Source: Epsilonproteobacteria bacterium tcs-49
GTDB lineage: Bacteria > Campylobacterota > Campylobacteria > Campylobacterales > Sulfurovaceae
Length of the DNA: 64,000 nucleotides
Assembly (NCBI GenBank): GCA_002049495.1
Contig: LLYS01000001.1
Coordinates: forward strand, 124,001 to 188,000
Direction of reading: 5' to 3'
Positions 8,190 through 15,990 of this stretch are shown here, in pieces. Numbering within the stretch: position 1 is the first letter of the stretch; the number at the start of each line of letters is the position of its first letter. The translations under genes were made by a program, and so were the position numbers. Under the pieces are notes generated by a model, which saw only the letters and a list, made by a program, of their open reading frames with translations, was not told the origin of the DNA and made no database searches.

Positions 8190-8222
8190 ATTTACTATAT
8201 AACGGCGCAGCGTCCGGATAAC
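8190..8222 (-). other. Distal end of the cassette array: attC-like remnant
   Basis: Beyond the last full attC, the minus strand reads GTTATCCGGACGCTGCGCC and then GTTATAT. The first part nearly matches the start of the first cassette next to attI (GTTATCTCGGACGCTGCGC, minus strand from 14739). The same sequence motif therefore occurs at both ends of the array. The remnant may be a decayed cassette or half an attC. Confidence 0.45.
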
Positions 8223-8271
8223 GTTTGAGTTCATCGACAGCTTTGCTGTTCGGTGCTAGGATTTGTTAGCT
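8216..8271 (-). other. attC site 4 (last cassette)
   Basis: On the minus strand it begins AGCTAACAAATCC and ends CAAACGTTATCC. The inner arms CCGAACAG and CTGTCGATG pair imperfectly, as expected for attC. The TAA stop of the methyltransferase gene lies inside the first core box. It is about 56 nt long and nearly identical to attC site 3. Confidence 0.85.
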
Positions 8272-9456
8272 ATTTATACTATTTAAAACTTCTTTTAATC
8301 CATATGTAGTTGAATTAATAATTTCTATTTCACCACCTATTGAATCAAGTTCAAATAATGATTTCATATCATTTGTTCTAATTAAAAATGATTTTTTTGA
8401 ATGTTTTGTTTTTACTGCTTTAGCTAATTGCTTGATTGCCTCTTCAATCGTTTCATGTTCTTTTTGGATACGGATTAATATAGGAGTGTTTTGATAAGTC
8501 TCCTTAAGTATAGCATCTATTCCGCTATTTCTTTGAACTGGAACATAATCAATATCATGTAAAAATTTTTCTACTAAAATATCAACATTTCTATATGCAT
8601 CTTTGCCTTTTTTCAATAAATTGGATTCACTCTTTATGGGGTTATCCAATCTTGATTTAGTAAGTTGTATAGCATCCTCTGAAATATCCATACCTATAAC
8701 ATTTCGTTTTTTTAATTTCCCTGCAACTAAAGTTGTACCACTGCCACAAAATGGGTCAAGAATTGTATCTTCTTCATCCGATGCTATTTCAATAATTCTC
8801 TCTAATAGTAATATTGGTTTTTGTGTTGGATACCCAACTCTTTCTTTTGCTTTTGGATTTAAATAAGGTATTTCCCATACATCATTTAAGGGAACACCTT
8901 TTTTGGAATCACTATTTATTGTATTTCCATTTTCATCTTTAGCATATACTGTTTTCCCGCTATTATCTCTAACTCTTTTTTGTAAAATCTGATCAATATT
9001 TGTAGTTTCAGAATAATTATTATAAATTGTTTTGAACTTAAAATCTTTAGTCTTTGAGTAGAAATATATTGTTTGATGAGATGGTAGTAAACCTTTTCTT
9101 GAATTTGACCATCTTTTATAATACCAAATTATTTCAGACTGGAATTGATTTATGCCAAAAATATTATCTAAAAGAGTTTTAACTATATGAGTTGAATTTT
9201 TGTCACAATGAACAAAAATACTTCCTGTTTCTTTGAGCACTCTTCTTAATTGGATTAGTCTATAATATAAAAACTCTGCGTATTCCTCATTGCTTTTCCA
9301 AATATCTTTATATGAAAATTCTTTACTTCCATCTCTTGTTTTTAGTTTTTGTATTGTATTAGTAAAAAATGGTGGATCTAAATAAATCAAATCTACGCTA
9401 TTGTCTTTAAAATCTTTTAGCAGATTTAAACAATCACCTTGCAAAATTCTTTCCAT
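8266..9456 (-). CDS. Site-specific DNA methyltransferase (N6-A or N4-C, beta type)
   Basis: 396 residues. Motif IV is DPPF (after VDLIYL, about residues 27-30) and the SAM-binding motif I is FCGSGTT (about 237-243), which lies after motif IV, the order of beta-class amino-methyltransferases. About 130 C-terminal residues beyond the catalytic fold are of unknown role, possibly target recognition. It follows the restriction gene by five bases on the same strand and in the same cassette, so it is the protecting partner of that enzyme. The ATG has CTGGAG upstream. The gene is very A+T-rich compared with the host. Its stop codon is in attC site 4. Confidence 0.88.
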   Translation of the reverse strand: MERILQGDCLNLLKDFKDNSVDLIYLDPPFFTNTIQKLKTRDGSKEFSYKDIWKSNEEYAEFLYYRLIQLRRVLKETGSIFVHCDKNSTHIVKTLLDNIFGINQFQSEIIWYYKRWSNSRKGLLPSHQTIYFYSKTKDFKFKTIYNNYSETTNIDQILQKRVRDNSGKTVYAKDENGNTINSDSKKGVPLNDVWEIPYLNPKAKERVGYPTQKPILLLERIIEIASDEEDTILDPFCGSGTTLVAGKLKKRNVIGMDISEDAIQLTKSRLDNPIKSESNLLKKGKDAYRNVDILVEKFLHDIDYVPVQRNSGIDAILKETYQNTPILIRIQKEHETIEEAIKQLAKAVKTKHSKKSFLIRTNDMKSLFELDSIGGEIEIINSTTYGLKEVLNSINS

Positions 9457-9461
9457 ATTTA

Positions 9462-10373
9462 TTATGCTCCAGAATTTTCTTTTGCGATTTTTTCTAAAAT
9501 GTTTTTTAAGTCTATATTTGTTCTATTTTTAACATATTCCCAAGCACTATCCCCATAATAGTATTCTCCTCCTATTCCATTGTAAAGAGTTTCAAGTGTA
9601 TTTTGGATTTTTATTGCTTGTTCACGATTTGGATAATAAAACATTACTCTAATTGGATTATATCCAGCGTCATGAATGACTCTGATTCTCGTATGTTCTT
9701 TTGTTATGTGGTCACCGTCAGTTGTAGCATCTCTCCATTTTATTTCTATTGCATTATTACCTTCTAAGCAATCAATTTCAAAAGTTTTTGGTCGTGTACC
9801 TAAAGTATTTGGTATTTTTGTTGTTGCTGAATCAGGAAATTTATGTAAAAAACATAGTTTTGTAGCTTCTTCTAAAAAAGAACCTGCATATTTATATAAA
9901 AAACGTCCTTTATTTTGGTACAAATCTATCAAATGTCCTTCTTCATCTGTCACACCTAAAACTTGATAAACTAAATAGTGTGATTTATCATCACTTTCCA
10001 TCTCTTCCATTCTATCATCAATTTTTCTTTTTAAATTATCTGCATATATTTTTGCTAAATCTTTTATTTCTTGTTCTATATTCATTAAAATTTTTTCCTC
10101 TAATTTTTCTATTTCTTCTTCAAGAATACTAAGTCCTGACGGATAAGAAGTAATAAGCCCTTCATAAAGTATATCTTCAAAAATATGTGATATATCATTT
10201 TCTTCATTTGGGTTATAGTTTATCCTATTTTCATTGATGAAGTTATTTTCTTCTTTTAATAATTCATCATACTCTTCTATTGAAAGTTTATCTAAATATT
10301 CATTTAACTCTTCATATTGTTTTTCTTTACGCTGCAATAGGTTTTGCAATTCAATTAAATAGTCATTGTCCAA
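9462..10373 (-). CDS. Type II restriction endonuclease, ApaLI-like
   Basis: 303 residues. The N-terminal 140 residues are acidic and helical. The C-terminal half has a PD-(D/E)xK-like core: FEIDCLEGNNAIEIKWRDAT, with Asp in EID and the E-x-K of EIK, then TKEHTRIRVIHDAGY and RVMFYYPNREQA. This looks like the ApaLI family (recognition GTGCAC in ApaLI), but the specificity here is not known. The likely start is a TTG at 10373 with AAGGA six bases upstream. It is first in a two-gene cassette with the methyltransferase. The endonuclease is translated before its methyltransferase, an order that usually needs a control mechanism on entry into a new host; no control gene is visible. Confidence 0.65.
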   Translation of the reverse strand: MDNDYLIELQNLLQRKEKQYEELNEYLDKLSIEEYDELLKEENNFINENRINYNPNEENDISHIFEDILYEGLITSYPSGLSILEEEIEKLEEKILMNIEQEIKDLAKIYADNLKRKIDDRMEEMESDDKSHYLVYQVLGVTDEEGHLIDLYQNKGRFLYKYAGSFLEEATKLCFLHKFPDSATTKIPNTLGTRPKTFEIDCLEGNNAIEIKWRDATTDGDHITKEHTRIRVIHDAGYNPIRVMFYYPNREQAIKIQNTLETLYNGIGGEYYYGDSAWEYVKNRTNIDLKNILEKIAKENSGA

Positions 10374-10467: not shown

Positions 10468-11985
10468 TTATAGTTTCAATATTTTACCACTTTTTATATG
10501 TTGTTTAAATTCTTCTGCATTGTTGAATTTTAATTCAACATTGAAGGTATTAGCAATCATTGCTAAACCACTATTTATATTTTCACCATTTTGAATAGCT
10601 AAACTTATTGTTTTAAATCCATCTTTAATTTCTAATTCTTTTTTATTAAAATAGTTATCATAAATTGACATAGCATATTCACGATATTCTTTTTCTTGAA
10701 TAATTAAATCTTCACAATATGCTTTTATTGCTTCTCTTTGTTTATTTGATATCTCTGTATCATGAATAGATTTTTGCAACTCTGAATATACAGCACTACT
10801 CATAATTGATGCTGTCATACCACCAATAACACCACCAACAATTGTTCCCACACCTGGCATTATTGCCGTTCCTACAACTGCTCCTAAATTCGCACCTGTT
10901 AATGATGTTGCTAAAGTTGTTCCCTCTTGACCAATATTTTTAGCAAATTCATTTGCATCAATTTTTCCAGTTAATAAATTTTTTGTTTGTTTTGCTAATA
11001 TCACTCCTGATTGAAGTATTACAGTAGGAGTATTGCCTTTTGCTAGATTTTTGGCAACTTGATTACTAGATGATTTTAAAATTCCACCAATAGCAGAGCT
11101 TGTGGCACCACTTGCATAAGCAAGTGCAGTTGCTTTACTTGTATCAACTGCCATATCTTGTAATGCCTCTTTGCCTATTTTATCTCCTTTATAAAAAGCA
11201 TAAAGGTTTTTAGCTGAATTTATTCCACCACTTATAGCTCCACCAATTTTTGCAGATTCTATACCTGCTTTATGAGATATTTTACCTATATCTTTTGCTA
11301 TACTTATATTATGGTTTTTTCTAGCTTCCATAGCTTCTTCTGTACTGACTTTTGCATCTCTGAGTCTACTTTTTGCATCTTTTATATCATCAATCTTTTT
11401 CTGTAGATCATTTACTTTATTGCTATCACCATTGTCAATTCTATTTTGCTTTTGTTTTTCAAGTTTTGAGATTTGATTATCCCAGTCTGCTTTAATATCA
11501 CTTATTTGGTCACTTGGTACATCTAAAATAGCATCTTTATAATGATTAAATTCTTTTCCATATAGTTTTCTATAGCTTTCAAGATTTTTAAAAACTTTTT
11601 GCTGTGAGCCTCCTATATAATTACCTGCTGTATCTAAAATTGGATTTCCATTCTTGTCAACTTCTACATGATCAAATTGAGGATGATTAACACTTCCTAC
11701 ATCATCAGTTCTACTTATTCTTGTATTCTTTTCATCTAAAATATTTTGTGCATTAGTTCTTGCTGTTGTCTTTATTTCAGCAGAAAATCCTGATTGTTGA
11801 TGATAATTATTATCCACGTATTCTGGATTAATATTACTATTTGCTATTTTACTTAAATCTGTATGTGTTTTAAAGTGTTCTGCATTTGCAAACCCAAACC
11901 GTTCCAATTCAGCACTAATAGCTATATTTACTTCATTGTTAAAGTCTTTTTCTTTTTTTCTTTTTTTTAAGCCAAATAAATCCAT
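10468..11985 (-). CDS. Unknown large protein with coiled coil and glycine-zipper segment (three-gene cassette)
   Basis: 505 residues, family not recognised. A soluble N-terminal part (1-130) carries a distinctive stretch, HQQSGFSAEI at 62-71 and RTDDVGSVN at 92-100, followed by QFDHVEVD. Charged coiled coil covers about 160-215. A long small-residue region follows (245-400) with alternating Gly/Ala/Ser, including MPGVGTIVGGVIGGMTASIM at 376-395, which resembles the glycine zippers of membrane-inserting proteins. There is no signal peptide or enzyme motif. It is third in a tight operon, four bases after the upstream gene, and its partners are a second glycine-zipper protein and a TerB-like protein. 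A membrane-acting effector of a defence or toxin system would fit, but that is inference. Confidence 0.6.
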   Translation of the reverse strand: MDLFGLKKRKKEKDFNNEVNIAISAELERFGFANAEHFKTHTDLSKIANSNINPEYVDNNYHQQSGFSAEIKTTARTNAQNILDEKNTRISRTDDVGSVNHPQFDHVEVDKNGNPILDTAGNYIGGSQQKVFKNLESYRKLYGKEFNHYKDAILDVPSDQISDIKADWDNQISKLEKQKQNRIDNGDSNKVNDLQKKIDDIKDAKSRLRDAKVSTEEAMEARKNHNISIAKDIGKISHKAGIESAKIGGAISGGINSAKNLYAFYKGDKIGKEALQDMAVDTSKATALAYASGATSSAIGGILKSSSNQVAKNLAKGNTPTVILQSGVILAKQTKNLLTGKIDANEFAKNIGQEGTTLATSLTGANLGAVVGTAIMPGVGTIVGGVIGGMTASIMSSAVYSELQKSIHDTEISNKQREAIKAYCEDLIIQEKEYREYAMSIYDNYFNKKELEIKDGFKTISLAIQNGENINSGLAMIANTFNVELKFNNAEEFKQHIKSGKILKL

Positions 11986-11989
11986 ACAG

Positions 11990-13027
11990 TTATTCCTGAT
12001 AATTTAATTGAAATTGCAATTCTGAAATCATTGTTTGATTACCTTCTAAAACTTCCAAACTATTACTAATAAAAGCACCTTCTTCATTCATAAGTGGCAT
12101 TTTTATTATTTCATTTAATATTGATGCAATATTTGCAGAAGTGGCAAATACTTCAGCTTCTCTAGTTGATAATATATCAATATTAAATATTTTATTTTTT
12201 ATTGGGTCAATAAATTTTGCAATTGCGGATCTTTGTTCTAGTCTATAGGCAATTTTAGCCATTTCAGTATTATAAACCTTGAGTAAAGCATCTAATCCTT
12301 TAATACTTTCACTCATTAAATAGCATCCTCTTCTTATTTGAGATAATTCAGCTATTAAGGTAGTGACCTTTTCTACTAATACATCAATTTCATCGGAATA
12401 ATTATTTGCTTCATTTAATGCTTGTTTACCTTTATTTGTTCCAAGAAACATTCCAAATACTAAAACGGGTGCTAATGCTATTCCTCCAAGAACTACCATT
12501 CCTCCTGTCATACCTGCACCACCAGCACTTACTGCACCTCCACCAAGCCATGCTAAAGTTGCATTTGTTGCAGCAGCTCCTGATAGCGTTCCTATTGCAG
12601 TACCTGTTGAGGCTGTTCCAATAATTGCAGCCGTTCCCATAGCACCAAATGCCGCTGTTGTACCTATTAATGCACCACCTGCGACGGCTGTAGAAATTTC
12701 TTTTATATTGGTTGTTATAATCTGCATGTCTTTAAAATCTGTTTTAAAGTTACTATAATCTAGTGTTTCATCTTGCTTTAAAGGTTTTAAATCAACTTTA
12801 CCTATTACCTCATATGCCTTTACAAAATCATTGATACTTTGTGAGTATACTTCTTCTTTTAATACACCCAAACTCTGAATATCATCTTGGGTTTTTTCTT
12901 TTGTCTCTTCTAATTCTTCTTTTATATCATTTTTTCTTTTATTCGTATTTTTTGTAATTCGTTTTGCATCACTTCTATCAATTGCTCCAAATGTTATAAA
13001 ATTAGTTGTTTTTCTAAGAAGTCTCAT
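11990..13027 (-). CDS. Unknown glycine-zipper membrane-associated protein (three-gene cassette)
   Basis: 345 residues, family not recognised. It has a basic N-terminus, a charged coiled-coil region (about 25-65), and a long hydrophobic Gly/Ala/Thr-rich stretch (113-197) with repeated G-x3-G spacing, for example GGGAVSAGGAGMTGGMVVLGG. A helical C-terminal half (about 205-345) follows. It has no signal peptide. It starts two bases after the stop of the TerB-like gene and ends four bases before the next start, so the three genes are translated together. The repeated small-residue pattern suggests insertion into or packing within a membrane. Confidence 0.6.
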   Translation of the reverse strand: MRLLRKTTNFITFGAIDRSDAKRITKNTNKRKNDIKEELEETKEKTQDDIQSLGVLKEEVYSQSINDFVKAYEVIGKVDLKPLKQDETLDYSNFKTDFKDMQIITTNIKEISTAVAGGALIGTTAAFGAMGTAAIIGTASTGTAIGTLSGAAATNATLAWLGGGAVSAGGAGMTGGMVVLGGIALAPVLVFGMFLGTNKGKQALNEANNYSDEIDVLVEKVTTLIAELSQIRRGCYLMSESIKGLDALLKVYNTEMAKIAYRLEQRSAIAKFIDPIKNKIFNIDILSTREAEVFATSANIASILNEIIKMPLMNEEGAFISNSLEVLEGNQTMISELQFQLNYQE

Positions 13028-14579: not shown

Positions 14580-14663
14580 ATCTAACGGCGCCGCGGGTAA
14601 GCGACAGCCGGATAAAAAATTTTAATTTTTTGTTTGGGTGCTCGCTTCTCCCGCTTGTTATCT
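14580..14663 (-). other. attC site 0, ending a cassette without ORF
   Basis: On the minus strand it begins AGATAACAAGCGGG and ends GGCGCCGTTAGAT. The arms AGAAGCGA and TCGCTTACCCGC pair, with a long A+T-rich loop between them. It is 84 nt long. Between it and the attI crossover (about 14738) lies a cassette of about 150 bp with no plausible ORF. A 15-bp perfect inverted repeat (14583-14597 and 14698-14712) encloses the site. Confidence 0.75.
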
Positions 14664-14708
14664 GGTGCGAAGCAACAGATGACTAGCGGGTGTTCAGCCC
14701 GCGGCGCC

Positions 14709-14739
14709 GTTATCTCGGACGCGCAGCGTCCGAGATAAC
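14709..14739. repeat. Perfect 13-bp inverted repeat at the attI junction
   Basis: GTTATCTCGGACG, a five-base loop CGCAG, and CGTCCGAGATAAC form a flawless hairpin bounded by GTT and AAC, the core bases of integron recombination. It sits at the integrase-proximal end of the cassette array, where attI meets the first cassette. A near copy of one arm plus loop is found at the far end of the array (8204-8222). Confidence 0.7.
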
Positions 14740-15027
14740 TATTTATTAAACATATATTGTATACAAAACAACCTTAATTATTAAAAATAACACACATAAA
14801 GAATGTCATATAATATATTAAGAAAAAGCACCTTAACACGGCACTTAATGAGATGTTATTAAAAGAATTGTTTAAAATCAACTACTATATATTAAATATT
14901 AATTTTTAGATATAATTTTAATATACATTTAATATATATATTTAGACAAAATTCATACATTTTATATGTATATTGTCACTATATCGTGATAAACCTGCAA
15001 AATGCTAAATATATTGGGAGGTGCAAT
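14740..15027. promoter_or_regulatory. attI and divergent intI/cassette promoter region
   Basis: About 290 bp without a gene, extremely A+T-rich, between the first cassette and intI. The attI crossover should be the GTT on the minus strand at 14737-14739. For intI there is a perfect TATAAT at 14911-14916. For the cassettes a possible leftward promoter is GTGACA (14974-14979) with TATGAA (14952-14957), spacing 16. These promoter calls are weak in such A+T-rich DNA. Confidence 0.4.
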
Positions 15028-15990
15028 GTGGGTAAAAAACTATTGGATATTATGACGGATAAGATTAGATTTAAACACTATAGCATAAGTACTGAGAGGA
15101 CTTATGTGCATTGGGCTAAGCGATATATACTTTTTCATAACAAACGGCACCCCAAAGATATGGGAAAGATGGAGATTGAGCAATTTCTCACCTTCCTTGC
15201 TACAAAGTTACATGTAAGTCCCGCCACACAGAACCAAGCTTTCAATGCAATTTTATTTTTATATGAACAGGTTTTGGATATTTCGTTAAAAGATCAAAAC
15301 ATCCAAGCTCTAAGAGCTCAAGAGAGAAAACATATACCCGTTGTGCTTACGATAGATGAAGTGAAAAATGTCATATCAAACATGAAAGGTATCTATCAGC
15401 TCATGGTCAAACTCATGTACGGATGTGGCTTAAGGATGAACGAAGTTCAAAATATCAGGGTAAAAGATATCGATTTTGGCTATGAGAAAATTTATATCTG
15501 GAACAGTAAATCTCTCAAAGACAGAACGTTACCGATGCCTAAAAAGATCAAACAAGAACTTATAATCCAAGTCGAAAGAGTAAGAGAACTTCATGCAAAA
15601 GATTTGCATGACGGCTTTGGCGGTGTATACATCCCTTATGCACTGGAGCGAAAATTTCCCAATGCTAAATATGAAACAAAATGGCAGTATGTTTTTCCAA
15701 TGGAGAAAATATCAACCGATCCAAGAAGCGGTGAGCGAAGAAGACACCACATACTCGATGTGACATTAAGCAGAAATATTAAAAAAGCAGTTACAAAGTC
15801 CAGTATTGACAAAAAAGTAACTGCTCATACATTCAGACACTCCTATGCTACACATCTTTTACAAAACGGTACAGATATACGATCAATTCAAGAACTTTTA
15901 GGTCATAAATCCATAGAAACCACTATGATATATACTCATGTTGTAAAGGAGTTACATAAAAACGAGATCAAAAGTCCACTTGACTTTTAA
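15028..15990 (+). CDS. intI: Integron integrase (IntI)
   Basis: Tyrosine recombinase that joins cassettes at attI and attC. With the GTG start at 15028, which has GGGAGG seven bases upstream, it is 320 residues. The longer frame from 14986 adds 14 residues without a good ribosome site. Catalytic residues are Arg136 (CGLRMNEV), His267 and Arg270 (HTFRH), His293 (LLGHKS) and nucleophile Tyr302 (MIYTHV). The IntI-specific insert, which ordinary XerC/D proteins lack, is clear at about 193-237: [19 protein letters not shown], then WQYVFP and [11 protein letters not shown]. It is read divergently from the cassettes, the classic layout. Nothing in the sequence suggests it is inactive. It is A+T-rich, but less so than the cassettes. 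Confidence 0.93.

Follow-up and report, generated by a model that had tools for sequence, protein, structure and literature searches.

The window analysed here, a stretch of 64,000 nucleotides from Epsilonproteobacteria bacterium tcs-49, contains an integron. Its integrase gene, intI, was identified with the TIGR02249 model (E=2.3e-123, 411.6 bits against a cut-off of 265), and the true start of IntI is probably at 15028, as relatives start near that codon. The closest named relatives of the integrase were found in Arcobacter and other Campylobacterales. The cassette array lies on the - strand and runs leftward from attI (approximately 14740) to approximately 8200. Among its distal cassettes is a restriction-modification pair inside the array (8266-10373, - strand; Type II DNA methyltransferase and Type II restriction enzyme, PADLOC E values of 7.5e-173 and 4.9e-100). 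The cassette protein at 11990-13027 (- strand) matched PDC-M09A, a candidate phage-defence model (E 4.6e-26), and its gene is adjoined by that of an uncharacterised 505-aa protein (10468-11985). The features relevant to the first cassette are as follows:

8198-8222, - strand: GTTATCCGGACGCTGCGCCGTTATA, collapsed relic of the cassette in the most distal part of the array
14583-14597, + (bottom) strand: 5' arm of the outer stem in the bottom-strand fold, part of the 15-bp perfect repeat TAACGGCGCCGCGGG/CCCGCGGCGCCGTTA
14586-14738, - strand: ORF-less palindromic cassette of 153 bp, both ends at a GTT core; homologues share the boundaries
14599-14647, + strand: arm B of the three-way junction, an A+T-rich stem from the DNA fold, both sides changed in 12 of 20 pairs
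14648-14692, + strand: arm A of the junction, which holds another GTTATCT...AGATGAC pair similar to hairpin 0, from the DNA fold and pair counts
14693-14696, + strand: the unpaired junction bases TTCA, belonging to a conserved GTTCA, in invariant alignment columns
14698-14712, + (bottom) strand: 3' arm of the outer stem, sharing GTTA with the base of hairpin 0
14709-14739, + strand: hairpin 0, a perfect inverted repeat with 14-bp arms and the loop GCA (14723-14725), whose arms house the R' (GTTATCT, - strand) and R'' (AGATAAC, - strand) of the cassette
14740-14985, - strand: attI region between the cassette and intI, with the conserved AACTATTTATT at the crossover
14986-15990, + strand: intI, integron integrase

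The cassette is delimited by crossovers between G and TT (G/TT below), located between 14739 and 14738 at attI and between 14586 and 14585, where the next cassette begins. On the - strand the order of elements is attI-G / TT-ATCTCGGACGC-TGC-GCGTCCGAGATAAC-GGCGCCGCGGG...CCCGCGGCGCC-G / TT of the next cassette, and the AACTATTTATT motif is also found upstream of intI in relatives. Hairpin 0 (GTTATCTCGGACGC-GCA-GCGTCCGAGATAAC on the + strand) abuts attI and overlaps both crossover triplets; together with the repeat enclosing attC site 0 (attC0) it makes up one unit, the 153-bp cassette. The first bases of the cassette and the preceding G read GTTATCT, which becomes the R' box upon excision, and AGATAAC is the R'' box. 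As these are the cassette's own boxes, hairpin 0 links its own R' and R''. The outer repeat (14583-14597/14698-14712) is the stem just inside R' and R''.

An initial annotation of this DNA had described an ORF-less first cassette, a flawless symmetric hairpin at attI ending in the GTT/AAC core bases, and a second perfect 15-bp repeat enclosing attC0. All of this was confirmed, with the arms of the hairpin corrected from 13 to 14 bp (loop of 3) and the longest closed ORF determined as 34 aa (2-39 aa across the family described below). Hairpin 0 is the only perfect inverted repeat in the 64-kb window with arms of at least 13 bp and a loop of 3-8, and no comparable repeat was obtained in 12 dinucleotide shuffles of the window, so that a chance origin was rejected. 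Wide occurrence of the hairpin in the host genome, which the annotation had named as the finding that would speak against its reading, was looked for; the 2.2-Mb genome (G000) contains a single site, and a common host-genome repeat was thereby rejected.

Folding of the bottom strand predicted a structure spanning the whole cassette, with an outer stem, a terminal hairpin and a three-way junction from which two arms extend. For attC0 the folding energy is -60 kcal/mol, three to six times the values obtained for the attCs of gene cassettes in this array (-10 to -21 kcal/mol). In the excised circle, the arms of the hairpin and the outer stem are predicted to join into a continuous stem of ~28 bp, in which the crossover bases would be located mid-stem and R' and R'' would be held together by the 3-nt loop. 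Arm A contains a second GTTATCT-type hairpin (14648-14692), whose sequence seems to change in step with that of hairpin 0 across the family, which suggests that the R-box hairpin was duplicated internally.

The comparison of first positions in related strains, as proposed in the annotation, was carried out and proved decisive; the cassette belongs to a family. Palindromic ORF-less cassettes with the same architecture and a different sequence are present in many Campylobacterota integrons; at attI the same organisation was found at L035, L039, L040, L043, L047, L050, L058, L061 and in genome G032, with quite different arm sequences. A first-position cassette of this kind is present at 10 of 37 distinct attI junctions (window included), these junctions having been found by integrase homology, so that they were unselected for the cassette, and some of the integrases being incomplete. 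DNA searches gave two related subfamilies of ~153 and ~185 bp, found across multiple genera and families within the order and sharing a common bottom-strand topology; the same G/TT boundaries are kept by the homologues, with the exception of the GAT-type copies discussed below. Identical copies recur within genomes: the 185-bp cassette is present four times in G180 (L115, L118, L119, L120) with different flanks, the scored copies being identical, and two identical copies each were found at L043 and in the closed genome G032. In G190, copies lie in tandem at attI. Internal copies are located behind different gene cassettes. The MAG contigs L035, L039, L040, L047 and L050 end within the cassette, as is expected of a repeat. 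A search for plasmid relatives gave one partial Streptomyces match of ~43 bp (E 0.04), which was judged to be due to chance.

The conservation of the fold was evaluated with an alignment of ten diverse members, in which 24 of 65 consensus pairs had changed on both sides, a count reached by none of 500 shuffles. The covariation score was 0.33, as compared with 0.07-0.08 for slid partners, a slide by one column being sufficient to destroy the signal; since the structure itself was obtained from these sequences, the slid control overstates the contrast, but the shuffle control is in agreement. When the alignment was folded independently for each strand, energies of -95.5 (bottom) and -52.4 kcal/mol (top) were obtained, with 64 G.T cells in the bottom-strand fold versus 2 in the top-strand fold. 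For hairpin 0 alone, 14 G.T versus 2 C.A were counted on the bottom strand (the underlying hairpin listing includes one spurious entry, from L043). The bottom strand folded better than the top strand in 17 of 17 cassettes with both DNA and RNA parameters. The view of the annotation that a symmetric hairpin lacks strand polarity thus applies to this one hairpin and does not extend to the whole cassette. At the level of sequence, these comparisons show that compensatory changes have maintained the fold among divergent relatives, with a preference for the bottom strand. The two arms of a perfect palindrome can also change jointly when replication is accompanied by correction through template switching, a process that requires no selection on the structure; template switching yields no one-strand G.T bias, which argues against it as a complete explanation.

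Preference for the bottom strand is a known property of IntI substrates (PMC8946536), and membership of the cassette in this class was assessed feature by feature. The array adjoins a true integron integrase, G/TT crossovers bound the cassette on both sides in the window and in relatives, and an ORF is lacking, as in other ORF-less integron cassettes. Classical attC sites have the organisation R''-L''-L'-R' and form a bottom-strand hairpin with an unpaired central spacer, extrahelical bases and a variable terminal structure (PMC8946536). The cassette shares with them bottom-strand folding, the AAC/GTT core and a branched terminal structure, and its R' (GTTAGAT, 14586-14580, - strand) agrees with GTTRRRY. 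It differs in its R'' (AGATAAC, 14715-14709, - strand, against RYYYAAC), where AAC is kept and YYY is not, in its perfectly paired outer stem of 14-15 bp, which leaves neither an unpaired central spacer nor extrahelical bases, and in the linkage of R' and R'' by a 14-bp hairpin. The extrahelical bases may be replaced functionally by the conserved GTTCA that is left unpaired at the junction. We therefore call the cassette a variant of the ORF-less cassette without the unpaired spacer of a classical attC.

A different role for the fold would be that of a structured small RNA transcribed from the + strand, in the manner of sRNA-Xcc1 from the Xanthomonas integron. ORF-less cassettes encoding regulatory RNAs are known (reviewed in PMC8876359), and the bottom-strand RNAs fold with -78 to -126 kcal/mol and with covariation; the bottom-strand preference, however, is already expected of an IntI substrate. 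A consensus scan for sigma-70-like promoters gave no site within 14586-14738 on either strand, and the sequence upstream on the + strand, which is that of the next cassette, varies from array to array. No Rfam family reached its gathering score, the matches to MicF, InvR, RgsA and others lying far below it and being judged to be due to chance. We consider a small RNA to be quite improbable. Of the suggestions in the annotation, that of a promoter-bearing cassette was not borne out by these searches, and that of a regulatory RNA was not borne out as far as known families are concerned.

Somewhat better placed, though still unlikely, is a regulatory element of benefit to the host, whose very stable fold at the first position would insulate the array or intI, either by lowering read-through from Pc or by terminating transcription from the array towards intI (a GC-rich hairpin followed by TATTTATT). 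Retention of the cassette at attI in 10 of 37 loci and the constraint on its structure are compatible with such a function, as is a terminator-like score for hairpin 0 and TATTTATTAA on the + strand (shuffles average 0.4 sites in the region). This score, however, depends on the T-rich tail, which belongs to attI, and internal copies without the tail keep the fold. The base of the hairpin stem is A+T-rich, and the constrained strand is the complement of the cassette transcript, top-strand folds being weaker by 8-19 kcal/mol.

The similarity of the cassettes does not track that of the integrases: the window and L061 share 63% in IntI and 83% in the cassette, and L043 and L122 share 82% and 57%, respectively, which is consistent with independent movement. 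A further rival reading is that of a REP/IS200-like palindrome moved by a tyrosine (HUH) transposase, e.g. a RAYT that happens to target integrons. REPs are palindromic single-stranded DNA substrates (PMC3733652), and the two Y1-type transposase genes located within ~0.7 kb of both element loci of G041 appeared promising. No such transposase was detectable in the genome of the window (E 1e-3), though, the boundaries of the element coincide with the integron crossover, and the integrase-derived sample shows the element without any need for a RAYT, so that we rejected this scarcely probable route.

Our preferred reading, to which we assign a probability of roughly 60%, is that the cassette is a non-autonomous and probably selfish element that retains little more than a recombination substrate. 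It is based on a sequence that serves folding and yields no evident product, and on a cassette that multiplies both inside arrays and from one array to another and is located at the most frequent insertion point of IntI. IntI would recognise the folded bottom strand, excise the cassette and reinsert it mostly at attI, of which the identical dispersed copies are an indirect sign; the strong fold would provide a high frequency of capture, and the cassette would spread by this frequency rather than through benefit to the host. The annotation's idea that the hairpin is relevant to recombination is supported. A pure decoy, in contrast, would leave the multiple identical copies per array, the G/TT boundaries and the different neighbours unexplained, and the decoy, promoter and regulatory-RNA readings are all less supported than that of a selfish cassette. 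Neither excision nor insertion was observed, and no pair of loci with the same neighbours, with and without the cassette, was found; a close homologue of the first gene cassette, sought for this comparison in 175 family genomes, was not obtained. Recombination of the spacer-less outer stem by IntI may be poor or different, and the enrichment at attI could result from host selection rather than from insertion bias. Somewhat short of an even chance, we tentatively extend the reading to a satellite lineage specific to integrons, with its own three-way-junction single-stranded DNA fold (R' and R'' tied by the hairpin), a spacer-less site, spread between genera independently of the integrase and, at the first position, a possible lock on attI.

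As an explanation in its own right, such a lock, in which a single hairpin would tie up the upstream site's R box together with the cassette's own R'', so that further insertion at attI is blocked and the array immobilised, is very unlikely. Beyond the overlap of hairpin 0 with both crossover triplets, it draws on variant copies at attI junctions (L150/L165, L166, L151/L167, L164/L168 and L155) in which GTT/AAC is replaced by GAT/ATC in both hairpin arms: intI was intact in 0 of 5 GAT-type loci and in ~12 of 17 GTT-type loci (Fisher p ~0.01, the loci not being independent). Against it, recombination at attI takes place on double-stranded DNA, where the hairpin is mostly unextruded, and copies of the GTT type are found together with an intact intI as well as with tandem insertions at attI.

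Repeated ORF-less cassettes as such have been described (PMC1382264, PMC6557892, PMC8876359). In Vibrio superintegrons, where 6-49% of the cassettes of an array are non-coding, paralogous non-coding cassettes have been proposed to be selfish or functional, selfishness being suspected since 2006 (Boucher et al. 2006, PMC1382264). They resemble the present family in lacking an ORF, in being repeated in arrays and in being shared between species. Unlike the present family, they are conserved in sequence and specific to vibrios, and the portion of that report drawn on here describes no whole-cassette palindrome, terminal hairpin or preference for attI. ORF-less cassettes of Treponema may also occupy the first position; they carry sigma-70-like promoters, for which the present cassette gave no match, and are rare at that position (1/42 and 1/5; Tansirichaiya et al. 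2019, PMC6557892), which is common here. MITEs and REP/BIME elements are likewise short, non-coding, palindromic and multi-copy, with the enzyme acting in trans; the present family, by contrast, is located at integron crossovers and needs no dedicated transposase in the genome of the window. No description of whole-cassette palindromes was found in the open-access literature, to which the search was confined.

The family provides suspected-selfish non-coding cassettes with a structural signature that they previously lacked, namely a covarying, bottom-strand-specific fold of the whole cassette, and the cassette is small enough to be synthesised and tested. If IntI mobilises it, it would represent a minimal cassette in which the unpaired central spacer is dispensable; if not, another route into integron sites would be indicated. 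Its concentration at attI and its persistence after loss of the integrase bear on the effects of first-position cassettes on the integron. Such persistence is seen in G023, in which the cassette remains at attI and intI is reduced to fragments.

Remnants of the cassette were found as well. The relic at 8198-8222 consists of the 5' arm and loop of the hairpin joined to the final GCC-GTT, and CGGACGCTGCGC occurs genome-wide only there and in hairpin 0; a 22-bp fragment of the cassette is located on contig 4 of the same genome beside an apparent attC site. At L058, L133 and L169 (12723) the hairpin is directly followed by a gene and the rest of the cassette is absent, as though a deletion had removed the interior of the palindrome and fused the hairpin to the gene that follows. 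A longer perfect palindrome around the same kind of attC (TGATGTAACCGAGATAAC...GTTATCTCGGTTACATCA, L136) was left unused as a possible assembly fold-back, being located at a contig end. Among the rearranged copies (second copy of L128/L143, and L142), one is without the first half of the attC part, its hairpin being joined at AAC to the second half, and one has arm B duplicated. Gene cassettes headed by a GTT..AAC hairpin were seen at L058 (1188-1221), L133 (~2316), L169 (12723-12758, decayed) and L066 (3153), the last of these in a gammaproteobacterial integron.
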